Source: Allocoleopsis franciscana PCC 7113
GTDB lineage: Bacteria; Cyanobacteriota; Cyanobacteriia; Cyanobacteriales; Coleofasciculaceae
DNA length: 64,000 nucleotides
Direction: 5' to 3'
NCBI RefSeq assembly: GCF_000317515.1
Contig: NC_019738.1
Span: 1,525,501-1,589,500, forward strand
In this document: positions 30,479 through 46,822 of the stretch, in pieces
Layout of the letters: every line of letters starts with the position of its first letter
Position numbering within the stretch: the first letter of the stretch is position 1
Notes under the pieces: model-generated
Told to the model about the DNA's origin: nothing
What the model saw: the letters and a program-made list of their open reading frames with translations, nothing else
Databases searched by the model: none
Made by a program: the position numbers and the translations under genes

Positions 30479-32254
30479 ATGAGCCAGAATAGCCAAAACA
30501 TATCGCCATCAGCCGTTAGTAGCCCCGCATTACCCTACTTTTACGATACTATTCCCCAAAGTGGAATCAGCCAATTTGTCGGGCGCGACAAGGAACTCGA
30601 AACCCTACACCAACTATTACAGGAACACGACCAAGTTGCAGTCACGGGTATCAGTGGCATCGGCAAAACCGAATTAGCCATTCACTACGCCAAGGCTAAT
30701 TTAAACCATTACACAGGCGGTATCTGCTGGTTATTTGCCCGTTCCGATTTAGGAGTGCAGATTGTAGAATTTTCGCTGTTGCATTTCCCAAATTTCACCA
30801 TCCCCGATAAACTAACTCCCACTACTCAAGTTCAGTATTGCTGGCAGTACTGGCAATCTCTACTTGTCTCTCCTTCCCAACAGGGGAATGGGGAGGTTCT
30901 CATCATTATTGATAATCTCACTGACTATTCCCAGATACAGTCCTACCTACCACTATCCTCATCTGGTTTTAAGGTACTAATTACCACAAGGCTGCAACTC
31001 AAACAGCCAGTACAGATGCTATCTTTAGACGTTCTATCACCACCCGCCGCCTGGGAATTATTAGCATCGCACATCGGCAAATATCGGGTGAAAGATACCA
31101 GGGGCAAGCCTTTTGGAATTGACTCTAAACGAAAACCAAGCAAACACAAGGTTAAGGCGAATCGAACTTCCGCATTTGTCCCCCCTCTTAAAGGAGAGGG
31201 ACAGGGGGAGAGGTTAACGGTAGCCCAACAGCTATGTGAATTGCTGGGTTATTTACCGTTAGGGATAGAGTTAGTAGGGCGGTATCTAGAACAAGAGCGG
31301 AATTTATCTTTAGAAAAGATGCGATCGCGCCTTGAACGTGCCTCCAAGAACCAATTACACTTGCAGCAACAGCACCTTAATCACGAGTCTATCATCCAGC
31401 CTGAAGCTAACACCGATAATAATTTAACAGCTCAATTGAGTATAACGGCAGCCTTTGAATTAAGTTGGAAACGTTTAGCTCAAGAGGCGCAAGAATTAGG
31501 CTGTTTGCTTAGTATATTTGCCTCAGCTCCTATTTCTTGGACACAAGTAGAAAGTGTATACGGTCAGCTATACCTACCAGGGGCTTTATTAGGACAATTA
31601 CTGAATATCTCACCCGATAATTCACAAGCCAATATTGAAAATCTGATAACAACGCTGCTAGCCAACCTCAAAGTATTTAGAAGTCAATTAATACAGCTAA
31701 ATCTATTGCAACATAGGGGAGAAGAAACGTATCAACTGCATCCACTGATTCGTGAGTTGTTTCAAGAAAAACTGGAAAGCTTAGAGCAATCCAGGAACTT
31801 AAAAGAAACATTTTGTCAAGTAATGATTGCTGTAGCCAAGCAAATTCCTGACTCACCCAGCCGCGATTTAATTGGGGCTGTGACTTCTGCCGTCCCCCAC
31901 ATAACAGAAGCCGCTACAACACTACAAGAATTTTTGAGCCATGAGGATTTAATCCAATCCCTAGAAGGCTTGGCCTGGTTTTATCAAAGCCAAGGGTTCT
32001 ATGACTTAGCCACCCCTTGGTGGGAGCAATGCGTCTGGCTCACGCAAAACTACCTTGGCTCAGATCATCCTGATTTGGTTACCAATTTACACAATTTGGC
32101 ATGGAGTTACTATGCTCAGGAGCGCTACACCGAAGCCGAACCCTTATCTGTGCAAGCCTTGGACATTTGTGAGCAAAAGTTAGGGGCAGAGCATCCCCTC
32201 ACAGTGGCAACCCGTAAAAACCTGGAAACTCTGTACCTGGTTCTCAAAAAATGA
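30479..32254 (+). CDS. STAND (NB-ARC) NTPase with C-terminal TPR
   Basis: A 591-residue signal-transduction ATPase. Residues 30-330 form an NB-ARC/NTPase module: FVGRDKELE, Walker A GISGIGKTEL at 57-66, Walker B in VLIIIDNLT, the VLITTR sensor strand, and GYLPLGIELVGRYL (GLPL motif). A winged-helix-like region follows, and the C-terminus has TPR-like units (HEDLIQSLEGLAWFYQSQG, DLVTNLHNLAWSYYAQ). Such proteins sense ligands and oligomerise, often in defence or regulated cell death. No N-terminal effector domain is present. An in-frame insertion between the NTPase and GLPL parts is described separately. The start ATG at 30479 lies 46 bases from the divergent Uma2 gene. Confidence 0.88.
   Translation: MSQNSQNISPSAVSSPALPYFYDTIPQSGISQFVGRDKELETLHQLLQEHDQVAVTGISGIGKTELAIHYAKANLNHYTGGICWLFARSDLGVQIVEFSLLHFPNFTIPDKLTPTTQVQYCWQYWQSLLVSPSQQGNGEVLIIIDNLTDYSQIQSYLPLSSSGFKVLITTRLQLKQPVQMLSLDVLSPPAAWELLASHIGKYRVKDTRGKPFGIDSKRKPSKHKVKANRTSAFVPPLKGEGQGERLTVAQQLCELLGYLPLGIELVGRYLEQERNLSLEKMRSRLERASKNQLHLQQQHLNHESIIQPEANTDNNLTAQLSITAAFELSWKRLAQEAQELGCLLSIFASAPISWTQVESVYGQLYLPGALLGQLLNISPDNSQANIENLITTLLANLKVFRSQLIQLNLLQHRGEETYQLHPLIRELFQEKLESLEQSRNLKETFCQVMIAVAKQIPDSPSRDLIGAVTSAVPHITEAATTLQEFLSHEDLIQSLEGLAWFYQSQGFYDLATPWWEQCVWLTQNYLGSDHPDLVTNLHNLAWSYYAQERYTEAEPLSVQALDICEQKLGAEHPLTVATRKNLETLYLVLKK
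31150..31215. repeat. Dispersed repeat inserted in frame in the STAND gene
   Basis: The core CCCCCCTCTTAAAGGAGAGGGACAGG is an imperfect palindrome of the CCCTCTCC/GGAGAGGG type, which usually sits between genes in cyanobacteria. Here it is translated as part of residues about 204-245, a low-complexity Lys-rich segment that homologous NB-ARC modules would not need. The frame is kept. Confidence 0.5.
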
Positions 32255-38459: not shown

Positions 38460-41252
38460 ATGAGTGACGCTTTCATTTCTTACTCACGTCGAGACAAGGA
38501 CTTTGTCAAAAATCTCCATGAAGCGTTTGTCAAATTGAATCGTAACGTTTGGGTCGATTGGGAAAATATTCCCCTGACAGCAGATTGGCGCAAAGAGATT
38601 TCTGAGGGGATTGTAGCCGCTGATAATTTTATCTTCGTGATCAGTCCCGATTCGATCGCCTCCCAGGAATGTGGCGTAGAGATTGAACAGGCGATTTTTC
38701 ACAACAAACGACTGGTACCCATCCTGTATCGGAATGTTGACCCCAAAGATACCCATCCATCCCTAGCCGCCATCAACTGGACGTTCTTTCGGGACAGTGA
38801 TGATTTTGACCGCGCCTTTCAAGAACTGCTCACAGCAATCGATACTGACTTAGAGCATGTAAAAATACACACTCGCTTGCAACAGCGATCGCTGGAATGG
38901 GATAAGAAAAAACGCGATCTCAGCTTCTTGTTACGCGGGAACGACTTAAAAGAAGCTCAACAATGGGTCGCCAAAAGTACTGGAAAACACCCGGAACCAA
39001 CCTCCCTGCAAACCCAATACATTGTCGCCAGTGGTCAGTCCCAGTTCAAGCGCCAAGGTGTAACTTTAGGCGCTGTAGTCTTCGGTTTGATTTTCACCGC
39101 TGTGTTGGCAGTGTTCGCAGAAGCCAGCCGTCGTGATGCTGTTGCTCAACAAAACTTCGCTAGAAAACAGGAAATCATTGCCTTAACGGCTCTATCTCAA
39201 GCCAGTCTGCTGACAGAAGATCAGCTTCGCGCCTTGCTAGAAAGCGTGAAAGCTGCTAAACAAGCACGATTGGTAAAAGATCTGCCAGAGAAAGTGCGCC
39301 AACAAACTCAAGAAGTACTCAGAGATGCAGTTTATGGTGTGCAAGAGCGTAACCGTCTCGCAGAGCATACGGATACCGTCAATAGCGTCAGTTTTTCCCC
39401 TGATCGCCAGCTCATTGCTTCTGCCAGTGATGACGGAACGGTCAAACTTTGGCGGAACGATGGCAAGTTGCTGTACAGCCTTAATCATCAGGCGAGTGTT
39501 CGGAGTGTAACATTCTCCCCCGACAGTCAATGGATTGCCTCCGCCAGTGCGGATAAAACTGTCAAAATCTGGAAGAGAGATGGAAGCCTACTCAGAACGC
39601 TTCAGCATAATGATCGGCTTCGGAGTGTTGCCTTTAGTCCAGATGGTAAGCTGATTGCCGCTGCTGGTGCGGATGGAACAATCAAACTCTGGAGTTTAGA
39701 GGGTAAACTCCTCAATACGTTAAAAGGCCATACCAATGAAGTCAACAGCGTGGCGTTTAGCCCCGATGGCAAGCTGATTACCAGTGCTGGCAGTGATCGC
39801 ACGGCGAGGCTGTGGACGAGAGAGGGACAACCCCTGAAAACCTTAATGGGACATCGCGATCGCGTCTGGGAAGTTAGTTTTTCCCCCGATGGTCAAACCC
39901 TGGCTTCCGCTAGTGGTGACAGTGATGTCAAGCTCTGGAGTGTGGACGGAACTCTGATCAAAACCCTTGAGTCCCATACCAATTGGGTCAGTAGTGTAAC
40001 TTTCTCCCCCGATGGCAAGAAAATTGCCACGGCTAGTGATGATGACTCAGTGAAACTGTGGAGCAGTAGTGGCACCTTACTCCAAACTTTCCGAGGTCAT
40101 AGCGGCGGTGTCAAGAACGTGCGATTTTCTCCCGATGGTGAAACCATGGCTACCGCCAGTGCCGATACAACGATTAAACTGCGTAGTCTCAGGGGAGCCG
40201 TGATCGAAATTCTTCAAGGACATCGCTATAGTATCAAAGGCGTGAGGTTCTCTCCCGATAGCACCCTGATTGGTACGGCTAGTGATGACAAGACGGTAAA
40301 ACTTTGGAACAGTCAGGGAACGTTTCTCGCTGATCTGAAGTATGGCGCTGGCATGAGGAATGTCAGTTTTAGTCCAGATGGTCAGACGATGGTCACGCCC
40401 AGTTACGATAACACCGTGCAAGTTTGGAGCGTTCAAGGTGTTCTTAAAGGTACGATGACTGAACCGCTCCGCACTTTTAAGGGGCATACTTCGACCGTTA
40501 GGAACATTAGTCTTTCCCCTGATGGCAAGCTCCTTGCCTCAGCCAGTGCAGATGGAACCATCAAACTTTGGCGGTTTGACGATGGGAAATTGCTCCGCTC
40601 CTGGGAGGCTCATCGTCCTGAGGTAACCGATGTGATGTTTTCACCCCAGAGCGATCGCCTTGTCTCGGTAGGGGGTGACGCTTTGGTAAAAATTTGGACG
40701 TTGGAGGGTAAATTACTTCAAACTCTCCAAGGACATAAGGCTTGGATTAATGCGGTCATACTCAGTTCTGATGGGCAGATGATTGCCACTGCCAGTGGCG
40801 ACAAAACGGTCATCCTCTGGAAGCGAGATAAAAATGGCGAGTTTCAAACTACGCCTTATCGAGTCTTAACAGGTCATCAAGATTGGGTTTGGGATGTGGC
40901 TTTCAGTTCAGATAGCCAGCTAATTGCCTCTGCGGGTAAAGATGATGCGGTGAAGTTGTGGAATCGGAAGGGCGACTTACTGATCACGCTGCGTGGGCAT
41001 CAGAATTGGGTTCGGGCCGTGGACTTCAGCTCCGATGGGAAGAAGCTAGCTTCAGGCAGTGCTGACAAAACAGCCATTCTTTGGACGCTTGAGAGACTCC
41101 AAGGACTGGAAGCTCAAGGTCAAGATTTAGACGAAGGGAAGCTGCTGGAACAAGGTTGCCAATTGTTGCGTGACTATTTGGCTAGTAGTTCTAAGCTAGA
41201 AAAAAGCGATCGCCATCTCTGCGATGGTTTGACTCAGCACACGGCTTTGTAG
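38460..41252 (+). CDS. TIR-transmembrane-WD40 protein
   Basis: A 930-residue multidomain protein. Residues 1-130 form a TIR domain (DAFISYSRRDKDFV, NVWVDWENIP, ISPDSIASQECGVEIEQ); Glu74 matches the catalytic Glu of NAD-cleaving TIRs by motif position. A helical linker leads to one membrane segment (about 201-220, LGAVVFGLIFTAVLAVF). Fourteen WD40 units then run from about 300 to 880, enough for two seven-blade propellers; a short helical tail with YL..SS...DRHLCDG ends the chain. The protein could sense a ligand by its propellers and act by NAD depletion, or only scaffold. It lies directly upstream of the SLATT/SLOG genes on the same strand. Confidence 0.92.
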   Translation: MSDAFISYSRRDKDFVKNLHEAFVKLNRNVWVDWENIPLTADWRKEISEGIVAADNFIFVISPDSIASQECGVEIEQAIFHNKRLVPILYRNVDPKDTHPSLAAINWTFFRDSDDFDRAFQELLTAIDTDLEHVKIHTRLQQRSLEWDKKKRDLSFLLRGNDLKEAQQWVAKSTGKHPEPTSLQTQYIVASGQSQFKRQGVTLGAVVFGLIFTAVLAVFAEASRRDAVAQQNFARKQEIIALTALSQASLLTEDQLRALLESVKAAKQARLVKDLPEKVRQQTQEVLRDAVYGVQERNRLAEHTDTVNSVSFSPDRQLIASASDDGTVKLWRNDGKLLYSLNHQASVRSVTFSPDSQWIASASADKTVKIWKRDGSLLRTLQHNDRLRSVAFSPDGKLIAAAGADGTIKLWSLEGKLLNTLKGHTNEVNSVAFSPDGKLITSAGSDRTARLWTREGQPLKTLMGHRDRVWEVSFSPDGQTLASASGDSDVKLWSVDGTLIKTLESHTNWVSSVTFSPDGKKIATASDDDSVKLWSSSGTLLQTFRGHSGGVKNVRFSPDGETMATASADTTIKLRSLRGAVIEILQGHRYSIKGVRFSPDSTLIGTASDDKTVKLWNSQGTFLADLKYGAGMRNVSFSPDGQTMVTPSYDNTVQVWSVQGVLKGTMTEPLRTFKGHTSTVRNISLSPDGKLLASASADGTIKLWRFDDGKLLRSWEAHRPEVTDVMFSPQSDRLVSVGGDALVKIWTLEGKLLQTLQGHKAWINAVILSSDGQMIATASGDKTVILWKRDKNGEFQTTPYRVLTGHQDWVWDVAFSSDSQLIASAGKDDAVKLWNRKGDLLITLRGHQNWVRAVDFSSDGKKLASGSADKTAILWTLERLQGLEAQGQDLDEGKLLEQGCQLLRDYLASSSKLEKSDRHLCDGLTQHTAL

Positions 41253-41688
41253 CGTTCTCCTTTCTTACACTCAGTGTTCATCGTAAAAAACTTGGAGCAA
41301 GACTAAAATCGATTGAGGGTAAGGGTTTGCACCCACAAGAAGCCTGTATTTTTCCCCCAAATCGAAAAAAGACAGATTACCCTAGGCAATAGAGCCATAA
41401 TTACGTCTTCAGGGGGATGTATGAATGATAAATTTAAGTTAATGGATGCGTCGAGTTCAGTCCCGATGGCAATACCCTTGTCACTGCCACTCAAGTCGAT
41501 CTCTGTGCATTCGTAGGCGCACTGAAGTGACGTGGCTTCCTGCTGATTCCATCGTGAGTAAAGCCGTCTTGAGCGCTCACAATGATGACTGGCTTGCTGT
41601 TCTAGTGTAGTGGGATGCTCTACTCGTCTTTGAAATTCAGACCCAATAGCGATTGGGGACAGCAGATCATTTACTAAAGGAACATACC
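41253..41688. other. Intergenic region with WD40 fossil
   Basis: No intact gene is seen. Bases 41448-41528 carry a short WD40 remnant (called separately). The promoter of the downstream SLATT/SLOG gene should lie in the last 150 bases. AAAGGA precedes its start. Confidence 0.5.
41448..41528 (+). pseudogene. Fossil WD40 repeat
   Basis: One frame reads EFSPDGNTLVTATQ and then diverges before a stop at 41528. This is the hallmark of a single WD40 blade with no start and no partner blades. It is probably left over from a deleted or recombined copy of the large upstream WD40 gene. Confidence 0.6.
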
Positions 41689-44600
41689 ATGATGCAAAAC
41701 CAAATAGAGAGCCTGGATAAAGCTCAATCTTTAGCCTTAGAAACAGCTTGGCAGCGTTACGCTCAACTGGAAACAAATGCCGAGGCCGCCTATAAGCAAT
41801 ATTTAAGGCTGCGTGGTTGGGTCATGGCTCTGGCGGTAGTTGCCACGCTCCTAGCTATCCTCACGTCTCGGTCTGATAGCAGTCTGATGGTATCACCTCT
41901 AGGCCAGGTGCTAAGAGCCTCCTTGATATTAGTCCCCCTAATCGGCTCGGTGATGTTAGTCTTTGCCAACAGACTACAGCAGGGACAATACTGGCGAGTT
42001 TTTAGAACAGGTGCTCAGGAAATTAGAAAAGAGATTTACCTTTACCGGACTCTCCTGCAAGGGCAACCCCAGCGTCATCAGTGGCTTTTGGAACGAGTTA
42101 GTCAGATTCAGCGCCAAGTAGTGGAGACGATTGGCAGTAATTGGATTATCAAACCTTACACAGGTGAAATTCTGCCGGATTATCCCGGTAATGAGCCAAA
42201 CAGCGTTTTGGTTTTGACTGATTTAGGGCCAGACGACTACTTGCGCGATCGCGTAGAAGCCCCCCTTAAGTCCTATTCTCAAGAATTAGAGAACATACAC
42301 CAAACCCGTACTCGTCTACAAACGGGCATTTTGGCGTTTGGGGCATTGAGTGCCTTTCTCCCAGCCCTCAGTGGCAGTCTGAACATTTGGGTCGCCTTTA
42401 CGACTTCACTGGGAACAGCGTTAATCATTTGGCTGGAAGTGAGCCGGCTGGACTTGGTGGTCAAAAACTATAACCAGCTCATTCTAGAACTTAATATTAT
42501 TCGCGACCATTGGCAAAGTTTAAGGCCACCGGAACAAACGGGGGCTGAATTTTTTAAATTAGTCATTGCCACCGAAAAAGTTCTCTGGAGCCAGCATAAT
42601 CAAGACATTAACCAAATGCGTGAGGCGGTGATTGAGTTACGCACTCAACCGAACGATATGGTGACTCAAGTGATGAGTCAGCCTGTTTTGAGTAAGATTG
42701 AGCAAACTCTGTTACCCGAAAAATCGACTCAACTCGAAATTTTACCCGCTAAAACAGAGATTATTCCCGAAGAAACTGTAGAAATTGAAGTTGTTAAACC
42801 TGAAAAACAAGAGCCAAAGAAACAAAATAAAAAAGACTTACCTCATGCCTTTGTGGTGATGCCGTTTGGTCGGAAAAAAGGCCCGGATGGACGTTGGATT
42901 GATTTCAATAGTATTTATCAGCAGTTAATTAAGCCAGCTCTGGAAGAGGCAGGATTTGAGTCCTTTCGAGCCGATGAAGAAAGCGTGAGTGGCGATATCT
43001 TAACCGATATGTTTCAGGAGCTTTTGCTGGCAGATTTAGTCCTGACTGACCTCAGTATTGATAATGCCAATGTTTATTATGAATTGGGTGTTCGCCATGC
43101 CTTGCGGAAGCGGGGGTTAGTGCATATTCAGTGTGGTCGGGCTTACATGCCTTACGACATTTTCAACGTCCGCACGATTCCTTACCAATGCGATGAAAAT
43201 GGTTGCCCTGACCCCAAACACTTGGAGAAAGATAAACAGGCGATCGTTAAAATGGCTCGTGCCACCTGGGAGTCAGACGAAAACCGAATTCACAGCCCGA
43301 TTTTTCAATTACTCGCAGGTCTGGAAGAACCCGATCGCAGAGCATTACGAACCCCCTTGGCAACGGGCTATTGGCAGGAGTACAAGGAATGGCAGGAGTT
43401 AGTCCTAATTGCTCAGCGACAAAAGCGGATTGGGGATGTGTTGTTGTTAACAGAAGAAGTCCGCAATCCTCTGATTAAAGAAGAAGCGATCGCAGACGCA
43501 GGTAAAGCCTTAAAGAACTTGGGGAATCATGCCCTCGCTCTCCAAGAATATCGACAAGGGCTGAAGATTAACTCTAAAAATTCCGAATTCCGGCTGGAAG
43601 AAGCGTTTCATCTGAGCCGATTGAAGCAATCCGAAGAAGCGATCGTGAAATTGGAGGGGTTGCTCCAGGATGAACCGAACAATATCAAGGCGCTGTTTTA
43701 TTTAGCTGGCATTTACACAGAAATGTGGCGGGATGAATGGCTCAAGATCAAAAATGAGCAAGAGCGCTTAGAAGAGGCTTACGAAGCGGCTCACTTACTC
43801 AGAAAAGCGATTAAAACTTACCTCAAAGGCTATCGCTTAAATCAAGATCATTACCATTCGGGAATCAGTGCCCTAATTTTTTCCTGCGTTTTAGAACACC
43901 TGGTGGAGCAGGTTGGCGAGGATAGCGATTTAGAAGATGAAGCCATTCGGCAACAGTTGCCCTCACTCAAAGGAGCCGTTCAATTTACCTTGGACAGTGT
44001 GGCTCAACGGGAATCCAATGATTTTTGGGTCTTTGTCTGTTTAGCTGATTTCGCCGTCTGCACGGCTGAGGACCCGAAACAGGTGATGAAAGCTTACAAA
44101 AAAGCCTTTACCCTAGCGGGGAAAAACAAATTTGCCTTGAAATCGACCCTCGATCAACTGAAATTATTGGAGGCACTCTCGTTCCGCCCAGATTATGTTC
44201 AGTCTGGCATCGCTGTAATTCAAGCAGAACTTGAGCGATTTGAAGACCAAGAGGAAGCGGTTGCAGACACAACCAGCAATGAACCAGCATCGGTGTTCTT
44301 GTTCTCTGGTCACATGATTGATAGTCCCAATCGTGCACAACCTCGTTTCCCGGCGGACATGGAACGCGAGGCTCGTCAAAAAATTGAGGATGTATTGGAT
44401 AAGTTACATGCCTGTTCAGGCTCGATGGCAATAGCACCAGGAGCGGCTTGTGGCGGAGATATTTTGTTTATCGAAGCCTGCTTGGAGCGCAATATCAAAG
44501 TTGAAGTGTTTCTCACATTTTCTCAGGCCGAGTTTATTCAAGATTCAGTCAGCTTTGCAGGTGATAATTGGGTTGCCCGTTTCTATGCCATTCAGAAGCA

Positions 44601-44919
44601 TCCTAATGTAACCATCCACCTCCAACCCGAACGTCTGGGCAGTGTGCCTGAAGGAGATAGTCCCTATGAGCGCAACAATCGCTGGGCGCTCTACTCCACG
44701 TTAATGTACGGCATCGAGCGAGTGCGGCTCGTTGTCTTGTGGAATGGCAAAGGCGGTGATGCGCCAGGTGGCACTGGGGATATGGTTCAACAAGTACGTC
44801 AACTGGGAGGAATTGTCGAACATATCGATACGACGAAGTTTGATTACTGGAAGATGAATGAAAAAGTCGTAGAGTTTCCCAAAACAATAGAAATGGCGGG
44901 TCAAGTTCAAGAGAGTTAG
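41689..44919 (+). CDS. SLATT-SLATT / deoxyribosyltransferase-like / TPR / SLOG giant protein
   Basis: A 1076-residue protein with an unusual domain chain. Residues about 20-145 and 170-300 look like two SLATT (DUF4231-type) units, each with two membrane spans (near 45-62, 80-98, 208-228, 232-255). After a charged Pro/Glu/Lys linker, residues 382-500 form a nucleoside 2-deoxyribosyltransferase-like fold (HAFVVMPFG, then ADLVLTDLSIDNANVYYELG). Helical TPR-like repeats of the DUF4071 / TRAF-binding kind follow to about 850. Residues about 867-1065 form a SLOG-like Rossmann domain (FLFSGHMID, APGAACGGDILFIEACLE). ATG 41689 was chosen because AAAGGA precedes it; a TTG frame begins 36 bases earlier. 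Membrane pore plus nucleotide sensors fits a conflict-system effector. Confidence 0.85.
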   Translation: MMQNQIESLDKAQSLALETAWQRYAQLETNAEAAYKQYLRLRGWVMALAVVATLLAILTSRSDSSLMVSPLGQVLRASLILVPLIGSVMLVFANRLQQGQYWRVFRTGAQEIRKEIYLYRTLLQGQPQRHQWLLERVSQIQRQVVETIGSNWIIKPYTGEILPDYPGNEPNSVLVLTDLGPDDYLRDRVEAPLKSYSQELENIHQTRTRLQTGILAFGALSAFLPALSGSLNIWVAFTTSLGTALIIWLEVSRLDLVVKNYNQLILELNIIRDHWQSLRPPEQTGAEFFKLVIATEKVLWSQHNQDINQMREAVIELRTQPNDMVTQVMSQPVLSKIEQTLLPEKSTQLEILPAKTEIIPEETVEIEVVKPEKQEPKKQNKKDLPHAFVVMPFGRKKGPDGRWIDFNSIYQQLIKPALEEAGFESFRADEESVSGDILTDMFQELLLADLVLTDLSIDNANVYYELGVRHALRKRGLVHIQCGRAYMPYDIFNVRTIPYQCDENGCPDPKHLEKDKQAIVKMARATWESDENRIHSPIFQLLAGLEEPDRRALRTPLATGYWQEYKEWQELVLIAQRQKRIGDVLLLTEEVRNPLIKEEAIADAGKALKNLGNHALALQEYRQGLKINSKNSEFRLEEAFHLSRLKQSEEAIVKLEGLLQDEPNNIKALFYLAGIYTEMWRDEWLKIKNEQERLEEAYEAAHLLRKAIKTYLKGYRLNQDHYHSGISALIFSCVLEHLVEQVGEDSDLEDEAIRQQLPSLKGAVQFTLDSVAQRESNDFWVFVCLADFAVCTAEDPKQVMKAYKKAFTLAGKNKFALKSTLDQLKLLEALSFRPDYVQSGIAVIQAELERFEDQEEAVADTTSNEPASVFLFSGHMIDSPNRAQPRFPADMEREARQKIEDVLDKLHACSGSMAIAPGAACGGDILFIEACLERNIKVEVFLTFSQAEFIQDSVSFAGDNWVARFYAIQKHPNVTIHLQPERLGSVPEGDSPYERNNRWALYSTLMYGIERVRLVVLWNGKGGDAPGGTGDMVQQVRQLGGIVEHIDTTKFDYWKMNEKVVEFPKTIEMAGQVQES

Positions 44920-45091
44920 CGATCGCATTAGGGAAGTGTCAGTTCCCCTAAGGTAGCGGGACGCGTTAGCCATTACCTCCAACAGAGGTTCGCGTCCCTT
45001 GTGTTTTGAGAGAAATGCTCATACTTCCCTAATGTCTAAGCTTTCTTAATTAATTAATCCTAAAAAGCGTCTTTCCTCGCCAGTTAAACTT

Positions 45092-45874
45092 GTGTCTACA
45101 CCTCTCATCTTTAATTACCATTCCATGGAAAGACCGTGTAATTTGACATTCCCTAATCAACTCTGTGCCAAAGCCATTCAGGTTCATAACGTCGTTGAAT
45201 TGTCTGAAGCCTTGCTTACAATCGGTCTTCACAGGACTCGTCCGACGTTAGTGTTGGTGGGTGGCGCGAGTGGGATTGGCGAAGCTGACAAAGCCCGCTT
45301 ACAACAGCTATTTACTGACAAGATTGCCCCACTGGCTCAAGAATTAGGAGTGACTGTTGTGGATGGTGGCACTGACGCTGGGATTATGCGGTTTATGGGT
45401 CAAGCTCGGACTCAGAGCGGTGGAACTTTCCCTCTGATAGGCGTGGCGGCGCTCGGCACAGTAATTGTCCCGAATGTTCCTGCTCCTAGTTCGGATGCAG
45501 CCCCCTTGGAGCCAAACCACACACACTTCATCCTGGTTCCTGGCACAAATTGGGGTGATGAATCGCCTTGGTTAGCCTACATTGCCACTGTCTTATCTCA
45601 AGGATTTCCCTCCGCCACGATTGTGGTCAACGGCGGTGAAATCACCTTTCAAGATGTATCCTACAGTGTGCAAGCAAACCGACCCGTCGTCACTTTGGAT
45701 GGTACAGGACGAACAGCGGATAAATTAGCGGCTGCGCTGCGCGGAGAACAAACCGATCCAAGAGCCAGTCAACTAGCGGCTTCAGGGAAAATGCAAGCGA
45801 TCGCCTTACTCGAACATCCCGATCGTGTCACGGCAGTGATTAAAGAGATTCTATCTAGATTACTACATATTTAA
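45092..45874 (+). CDS. SLOG domain protein of TRPM/LSDAT type
   Basis: A 260-residue soluble protein whose whole length fits the LSDAT (SLOG in TRPM, prokaryotic form) domain, a Rossmann-like fold thought to bind nucleotide-derived ligands. Signature loops are LVLVGGASGIGEADKARL, VTVVDGGTDAGIMRFMG, and ILVPGTNWGDESPWLAYIA, all Gly-rich and pocket-forming. GTG 45092 was used; an ATG at 45125 (MERPCNLTF) is an equally good start, since neither has a clear ribosome site. The gene lies 172 bases after the giant SLATT/SLOG gene and 108 bases before a SLATT gene, all on one strand. It most likely senses the signal that opens the SLATT pore; this is inference. Confidence 0.85.
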   Translation: MSTPLIFNYHSMERPCNLTFPNQLCAKAIQVHNVVELSEALLTIGLHRTRPTLVLVGGASGIGEADKARLQQLFTDKIAPLAQELGVTVVDGGTDAGIMRFMGQARTQSGGTFPLIGVAALGTVIVPNVPAPSSDAAPLEPNHTHFILVPGTNWGDESPWLAYIATVLSQGFPSATIVVNGGEITFQDVSYSVQANRPVVTLDGTGRTADKLAAALRGEQTDPRASQLAASGKMQAIALLEHPDRVTAVIKEILSRLLHI

Positions 45875-45982
45875 TGACCACCGACTCAGAGCTAGAAATA
45901 TAAAAACGGACACGGACGTAGCTTGAGTCAAAAGTTTCCATATTTAAGTAGCTAACTAACTACTCAAACCGGGGAGCACACC

Positions 45983-46822
45983 ATGGCAAAAAAGAACACG
46001 TATAATGACTATCTCAAGCAAGAAATGAGTGAGCTGATTGAAGAAATCGAGCTACCTTCTTTGCAGAAACGGTTTATGAAAAGCCGTTGGCTGGATCAAG
46101 TTTTGTGGTTGGAAGGTCGAGCGACTAAATCTCGTAGTCGCCACAATAGCCTGCGACTGATTACGATTATCGGAGGTGTTCTTGTTCCGGCTGTCGTCAG
46201 CGCCAACAGTGGGAATATTTCACAGCAAAACTTAAAACACTTGTTGGGATGGACAGCGTTTGGCTTAAGTCAAGCGGTTGCTATCAGCGCTGCTGTAGAA
46301 GAATTCTTTCATTTTGGTGAGAACTACCGGCGCTATCGTAACACGGCTGAGAACATGAAGATTCAGGGCTGGCAATTCTTTCAGTTAACGGGTCCTTATA
46401 AAGATGCCAAAAATCACAGTGAAGCTTATCCAACGTTTGCGAGTAACGTAGAGAATATCATCCAACAAGATGTAGAGGGGTATATTAGTCAGGCGGTGGA
46501 GTCGGATACCGAAATCAAAGCGGCTACGCAAGCTGTCATGGCTCAAAACATAGCACTGGCTAATATACGGCTAAGTGAGCATTTGCAACCACCACCCTCT
46601 GCCACGAATACTGAATTGTCGCCTCATTCAACAGCCCAAACCCATCAGCCCTCGCCTCCAGTGGTTTTGCTTAAGGAGGATAAGGTAGAGTTGGTGACTT
46701 CTGACTCAATCCCCCATACTCAGTTAGAGTCAAACAACAACCTGGACAATAAAGATTCAAGCATCCCTTCGCTGTCCCCTCCGCTCGTTGCGAATTCGTC
46801 TCCAGGAGTTGAGCCTAAATAA
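45983..46822 (+). CDS. SLATT (DUF4231) membrane protein
   Basis: A 279-residue protein. Residues about 5-165 form a SLATT unit: helix LQKRFMKSRWLDQVLWLEGRA, two membrane segments (LRLITIIGGVLVPAVVSA, about 53-70, and LLGWTAFGLSQAVAISAAVEE, about 86-106), then FGENYRRYRNTAENMKIQGWQFFQL, the typical post-membrane helix. The last 100 residues are a Pro/Ser/Thr-rich, probably disordered tail. SLATT proteins are predicted pore-forming effectors activated by SLOG or nucleotidyltransferase partners; the SLOG gene lies 108 bases upstream. GGGGAG precedes ATG 45983. It is probably the effector of the pair. Confidence 0.86.
   Translation: MAKKNTYNDYLKQEMSELIEEIELPSLQKRFMKSRWLDQVLWLEGRATKSRSRHNSLRLITIIGGVLVPAVVSANSGNISQQNLKHLLGWTAFGLSQAVAISAAVEEFFHFGENYRRYRNTAENMKIQGWQFFQLTGPYKDAKNHSEAYPTFASNVENIIQQDVEGYISQAVESDTEIKAATQAVMAQNIALANIRLSEHLQPPPSATNTELSPHSTAQTHQPSPPVVLLKEDKVELVTSDSIPHTQLESNNNLDNKDSSIPSLSPPLVANSSPGVEPK

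Follow-up and report, generated by a model that had tools for sequence, protein, structure and literature searches.

In the cyanobacterium Allocoleopsis franciscana PCC 7113, a 64,000-nucleotide stretch of DNA (NC_019738.1, positions 1,525,501 to 1,589,500; hereafter the window, whose own numbering we use) contains a cassette of four genes on the + strand (38460-46822) which, to judge by their domains, probably forms a self-destruct or defence device. We favour the view, with a probability of roughly 0.55, that it is a suicide device of the abortive-infection type, driven by nucleotide signals and built of two linked arms. The first gene (38460-41252, 930 residues) encodes a TIR-WD40 protein (Pfam TIR_2 and WD40). 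It is followed by the gene of a giant protein of SLATT-SLATT-DRHyd-TPR-S-SLOG composition (41689-44919, 1076 residues), by an LSDAT_prok gene encoding a TRPM-type SLOG sensor (45092-45874, Pfam E 6e-71) and by the gene of a stand-alone two-transmembrane (2TM) SLATT protein of the DUF4231 type (45983-46822, Pfam E 1e-34). This domain composition is near certain. An initial annotation had recognised the last three open reading frames, and we find them in the same places, order and orientation; it omitted the TIR-WD40 gene, which lies upstream on the same strand and is part of the neighbourhood.

The domain content of the cassette, its homology to TRPM2, ASK1 and YpsA, the gene linkage, the co-occurrence of the genes and their fusions elsewhere can all be read directly from sequences or structures. 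Among 292 sampled cyanobacterial genomes, LSDAT is present in 23. Strong DUF4231 (SLATT) matches turn up in 21 genomes, and 20 of these encode LSDAT as well (Fisher 8.6e-27); the sole SLATT genome without LSDAT is G237, in which the SLATT gene adjoins one for a DRHyd-TPR-S-SLOG protein. SLATT and LSDAT are neighbours in 15 of 24 loci. TIR domains related to that of the window are found within 10 kb of LSDAT in seven of the 24 cyanobacterial loci, against 0.16 expected (P 4e-10), and within 5 kb in four loci, against 0.08 expected, where the expectation assumes uniform placement and does not correct for relatedness, and where the seven loci include the window and span six genera.

It is possible, if clearly less probable than our favoured view, that the locus is a small group of defence genes made up of two or three modules (the giant, the LSDAT-SLATT pair, TIR-WD40) that work independently and have stayed together by chance. 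The DRHyd-TPR-S-SLOG core of the giant is rare (3/292 genomes, in addition to three loci in cyanobacterial metagenome-assembled genomes, MAGs, and one in a Poribacteria MAG). Several observations weigh against a single system and suit such a cluster. The giants of loci L014, L015 and L017 have no linked LSDAT, SLATT or TIR, although the genomes of L014 and L017 encode LSDAT elsewhere. LSDAT and the giant are 190 kb apart in G060 and lie on different contigs in G294, and most LSDAT-SLATT pairs occur without a giant. The two arms are therefore separable. In the window itself, intergenic gaps of 436 and 172 bp make co-transcription uncertain; promoter and terminator scans of the locus gave no excess over shuffled sequence. 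PADLOC finds no complete system in the window, which also counts against our favoured view.

Chance assembly, however, fits poorly with a TIR-LSDAT linkage that is far above random expectation and with the conservation of gene order. A Coleofasciculus MAG (L013) has the giant, LSDAT and SLATT in the order of the window, and another locus (L012) has TIR-WD40, the giant and LSDAT. G237 combines, in one run (L016), a triple-TIR-WD40 protein, a DRHyd-TPR-S-SLOG protein without fused SLATT units and a separate SLATT. Moreover, the four genes of the window are co-oriented between housekeeping genes of the opposite strand, with sucrose-phosphatase and ruvA at one end and an S41 protease at the other. 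The trio is thus real outside this genome, yet not obligate, and its absence elsewhere, which the initial annotation had named as a refutation, does not apply. The sense-and-kill module proposed in the initial annotation holds as far as SLOG sensors, membrane effectors of the SLATT type and a candidate nucleotide enzyme are concerned, but is not fully supported for three genes acting as one obligate system; it is more likely that the core consists of LSDAT and SLATT together with TIR-WD40 as signal maker, and that the giant is a second, self-contained arm.

In the two-armed suicide device that we favour, the WD40 propeller of the TIR-WD40 protein would detect infection and its TIR domain would cleave NAD+ to give a signal of the ADP-ribose type. 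LSDAT, which is related to the ADP-ribose-sensing MHR1/2 region of TRPM2, would bind this signal and switch the stand-alone 2TM SLATT, which would in turn permeabilise the membrane. In the second arm, contained in a single chain, DRHyd would make or remove a nucleotide signal, TPR-S and SLOG would sense it, and the two fused SLATT units would act on the membrane. Taken together, an NAD-derived signal made by TIR, by DRHyd or by both would reach the SLOG-type sensors and, through SLATT, make the membrane fail; cells that have a hydrolase would then lyse. We infer the identity of the signal, pore formation by SLATT, the death of the cell and the phage trigger. SLATT has been predicted to be a membrane effector regulated by ADP-ribose derivatives and is linked to TIR in phages of firmicutes (PMC9503650), and phage defence by DRT10 depends on a SLATT gene (PMC12632851).

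The putative signal maker carries an N-terminal TIR_2 domain (Pfam E 2e-25) with a CxxE catalytic-type motif (SQECGVE), followed by about 14 WD40 repeats. An orthologue (58%) lies upstream of the giant in L012, and the triple-TIR version of L016 corresponds to it in G237. The combination of a TIR signal maker, a SLOG sensor and a killing effector recalls Thoeris, where the TIR protein ThsB signals to the SLOG-containing ThsA, but in the cassette the sensor is a TRPM-type LSDAT and the effector a SLATT. The TIR-WD40 protein matches ThsB models at E 3e-7 only and stays far below the cut-off of the NCBIfam Thoeris model, and in the other three proteins of the cassette profile searches detected neither SIR2 nor Macro-TM, nor any further known type of ThsA/ThcA. 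Membership in Thoeris was rejected as the cassette has no ThsA-type effector. WD40 proteins that begin with two or three TIR domains in tandem stand next to SLATT or LSDAT in L016:234-4424 (G237), L070, L073 and the L078 region, and tandem TIRs are common in the cyanobacteria of LSDAT/SLATT loci. The LSDAT-SLATT locus L077:1-3897 (G133) encodes an nSTAND ATPase-WD40 protein instead of TIR-WD40, with a TIR fragment after it at the end of the contig.

The LSDAT gene probably starts at ATG 45125 and not at GTG 45092, since its homologues begin at the former, which corrects the annotation. The best PDB relatives of the protein are TRPM2 channels (E 8e-10 with the single sequence, 5e-18 with a profile). 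In the MHR1/2 site of human TRPM2, ADP-ribose (ADPR) is contacted by Y295 through stacking, by R302 at the ribose, by R358 at the phosphates and by the beta5-alpha3 loop (PMC6759353), and F268 and R275 are essential in the TRPM2 chanzyme (PMC11479946). A HMMER alignment places W154 at the position of Y295/F268 and R207 at that of R358; both residues, like the GGT loop, are invariant in 28 bacterial LSDATs. One position counts against the proposed signal: R302/R275 is not conserved but replaced by L161, a position that is hydrophobic in 27 of the 28 LSDATs, so that the ligand, with the ribose-contacting arginine lost, may not be ADPR. From the alignment as a whole, an ADPR-like ligand is plausible.

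The likeness to the TRPM2 channel and chanzyme thus comprises the LSDAT/MHR1-2 sensor, the GGT loop, a stacking aromatic residue (W for Y/F) and the phosphate-contacting arginine. The differences are the missing ribose-contacting arginine and the membrane part, for which the cassette uses a 2TM SLATT, unrelated and as a rule a protein of its own. Pfam searches found the TRP six-helix channel domain in none of the cassette proteins, and membership in the TRPM family was rejected for want of such a domain. No LSDAT relatives were found in phage records. A second LSDAT gene of the same genome (L064, C1 ~5397190-5397924) has no recognisable SLATT beside it, and in G060 (L066:4003-6317) two different LSDAT genes flank one SLATT gene on the same strand.

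The kinship with TRPM2, an ADPR-gated channel, could also be taken to mean that the cassette provides a non-lethal, TRPM-like regulated ion conductance for stress or calcium signalling, and the hosts are indeed large-genome cyanobacteria rich in signalling proteins. We consider this improbable, because the TRP channel domain is absent, because the distribution of LSDAT and of the giant across the sampled genomes is so patchy, and because SLATT proteins are repeatedly fused to, or encoded beside, at least four families of phage-type cell-wall hydrolases, which points to lysis.

The stand-alone SLATT of the window scores 104.7 bits with the NCBIfam SLATT_1 model (cut-off 41 bits) and has two hydrophobic segments (~54-80 and ~87-105) and a low-complexity C-terminal tail; the placement of basic residues around these segments predicts that both termini are cytosolic. 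Relatives of the DUF4231 type carry a C-terminal GH19 endolysin domain in L013, L114 and L078, with the PWe2 endolysin as best PDB match (E 1.6e-21). In the genome of A. franciscana itself, a SLATT (DUF4231) is fused to a complete GH24 phage lysozyme domain (L112:4770-6053, C1 ~2096769-2098052, Pfam E 4.2e-42), unlinked to the window. Fusions to a C39-like peptidase occur in L078 and L113, and endolysin-like tails in L065 and in a second protein of L078 (PHROG endolysin E 1e-7 to 4e-7); the tail of the 502-residue protein of L078 had no PDB match. Separate hydrolases stand beside SLATT in Rhizobium (Muramidase, E 1.4e-50; L081) and Hymenobacter (GH108, E 6.9e-18; L120).

This pattern looks like the coupling of holins and endolysins in phage lysis cassettes, in which a small membrane protein likewise accompanies an endolysin; the SLATT relatives differ in being coupled to nucleotide sensors, often within one chain. 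As the termini of SLATT are predicted to be cytosolic, a fused hydrolase would reach the cell wall, and so lyse the cell, only if the membrane fails. By analogy with these related proteins, SLATT probably acts in a holin-like manner. It speaks against extending this to the cassette itself that the likeness lies in its relatives: the SLATT of the window carries no hydrolase, and Pfam searches found no peptidoglycan hydrolase among the four cassette genes. A more elaborate scenario, which we put forward only tentatively, is a bacterial TRPM2-like programmed lysis in which an ADP-ribose-type signal from TIR would gate LSDAT-SLATT and so allow a coupled phage-type lysozyme to break down the wall, with the ASK1-type DRHyd-TPR-S part as a second input. 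If this were true, SLATT and lysozyme would amount to a domesticated holin-endolysin pair under nucleotide control.

The second arm is the giant. Its gene starts at ATG 41689, preceded by AAAGGAACATACC, and the order of domains given in the initial annotation (two SLATT units, a deoxyribosyltransferase-like domain, TPR-like repeats and a terminal SLOG) is borne out by profiles and structure matches. The first SLATT unit (41728-42063, + strand like all parts of the gene; residues ~14-125, with hydrophobic segments at ~38-60 and ~64-95) is weak in the sequence of the window (DUF4231, Pfam E 0.0021), but the same position passes the Pfam cut-off in homologues, namely the Poribacteria giant (L015, E 7.9e-10) and a stand-alone double SLATT (L021, E 5e-6). 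The second unit (42238-42603, residues 184-305) matches SLATT_1 with E 5.5e-24 and, like the other SLATTs of the cassette, has two hydrophobic segments. The DRHyd domain (42841-43200, residues 385-504) resembles nucleoside hydrolases and deoxyribosyltransferases; in the PDB, its profile finds DNPH1/Rcl nucleotide N-hydrolases ahead of ASK1 (E 0.0016 to 0.16). The candidate nucleophile, Glu465 in NVYYELG, is kept in nine of ten aligned DRHyd sequences and is replaced by lysine in the Poribacteria copy. In that giant, from a Candidatus Poribacteria MAG (L015:5615-8839), YKLG stands for YELG, and the loss of the catalytic-type glutamate suggests that DRHyd may serve there as a sensor instead of an enzyme.

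The TPR region (43354-44268, residues ~556-860) resembles the central region of ASK1 and includes a Pfam TPR-S match (residues 615-730, E 1.9e-10). Except in this part, the full-length model of the giant is of poor quality (mean predicted local distance difference test score, pLDDT, 62.8), and it served for the TPR comparison only, in which the best structural matches were ASK1 entries (8qgy, Z 18.9; 5ulm, Z 18.7) and the next, an unrelated TPR protein, reached 16.7. With the regulatory region of ASK1 (MAP3K5) the giant therefore shares a DRHyd domain followed by an ASK1-type TPR region; it has membrane units and a SLOG domain where ASK1 has a kinase. The C-terminal domain (44290-44850, residues ~868-1054) is YpsA/DprA-like and contains a GAACGGD motif. 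Modelled alone (pLDDT 79), it matches YpsA (Z 14.8) and DprA (Z 11.7), and also ShosA, the molybdenum cofactor (MoCo) carrier and LOG, and on these model matches it is a SLOG fold; plain Foldseek results were noisy and the fold was settled by a second structural alignment. The match to the ThsA SLOG domain with 3'cADPR, a cyclic ADPR, is Z 6.3.

The modules of the giant and of LSDAT recur elsewhere in other combinations. A single LSDAT-DUF4231-SLATT_1 protein is found in Hymenobacter (Bacteroidota) and Chlorohelix (Chloroflexota), where the sensor is joined to the same double SLATT as at the N-terminus of the giant, and in L021 an LSDAT gene overlaps that of the stand-alone double SLATT. Conversely, a Rhizobium leguminosarum plasmid (CP050566.1, L081:4446-12612) carries the modules of the giant as neighbouring genes. 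SLOG (42% identity) comes first, followed by DRHyd-TPR-S (37%) and double SLATT (Pfam); behind these lie a muramidase that also has a peptidoglycan-binding domain, a patatin and another DRHyd-TPR-S. That the modules of the giant and of LSDAT are joined or divided in this way in other phyla strongly suggests that they act together. A toxin-antitoxin-like arrangement, in which DRHyd and SLOG/LSDAT would remove the signal as regulators or antitoxins and the SLATTs would be restrained toxins, could draw on the conserved catalytic-type glutamate of DRHyd and on the cleavage of N-glycosidic bonds by LOG-clade SLOG domains (PMC9503650), but we regard it as very improbable, as LSDAT resembles a gating sensor, offers no evidence of catalysis and shares one chain with a double SLATT in two phyla, an arrangement more fitting for a switch than for a detachable antidote.

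The Rhizobium locus offers several possible killing parts, and an opposite-strand gene upstream of it carries the annotation "nucleotide-binding protein". On the Hymenobacter plasmid NZ_CP094670.1 (L120:608-8881), one strand encodes a 1527-residue protein with no Pfam match, the GH108 muramidase, LSDAT-SLATT-SLATT and, in the same run, a protein that weakly matches a peptidoglycan-binding domain. In two further loci (L023:7432-9645 and L024:8009-10009), TPR-S, a SLOG domain like that of the giant and an adenylate/guanylate cyclase are united in one protein, the gene of which directly follows and overlaps LSDAT in L023, which suggests that a variant of the system works with cyclic nucleotides.

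Systems in which a SLOG-type nucleotide sensor adjoins a 2TM SLATT as predicted pore were foreseen by Burroughs et al. (2015), according to two papers that cite that work (PMC7159879; PMC9503650), and TIR-SLOG signalling is established in Thoeris. Both are thus known kinds. The cassette adds to the SLOG/SLATT conflict systems the TIR-WD40 gene and the single-chain SLATT-SLATT-DRHyd-TPR-S-SLOG protein, and its relatives add the association of SLATT with phage-type cell-wall hydrolases. The searchable parts of the literature yielded no description of LSDAT-SLATT-TIR cassettes or of SLATT-hydrolase fusions, nor of the giant or of a TIR-WD40 gene in SLOG/SLATT systems. As far as searchable papers tell, the single-chain giant, the quantified linkage of TIR-WD40, LSDAT and SLATT, and the SLATT-endolysin couplings are new. 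CBASS and Pycsar were rejected, as profile searches found among the cassette proteins no nucleotidyltransferase or cyclase that would make a cyclic nucleotide. The SLATT-associated reverse transcriptases DRT10 and DRT9 share SLATT as presumed membrane effector, but the signal proposed there is cDNA and they have neither SLOG nor TIR.

One locus thus joins prokaryotic relatives of two components of animal cell death, the ADP-ribose sensor of TRPM2 and the regulatory region of ASK1, with a TIR enzyme. SLATT proteins recur in defence systems such as DRT9 and DRT10, and this cassette family offers a direct route to testing their presumed mode of action; the repeated coupling of SLATT to phage-type hydrolases yields the testable prediction that SLATT acts like a holin. 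Farther upstream in the window, 6 kb from the cassette, a gene at 30479-32254 encodes an NB-ARC/AAA-type ATPase followed by TPR repeats, a STAND-like candidate for defence or signalling.

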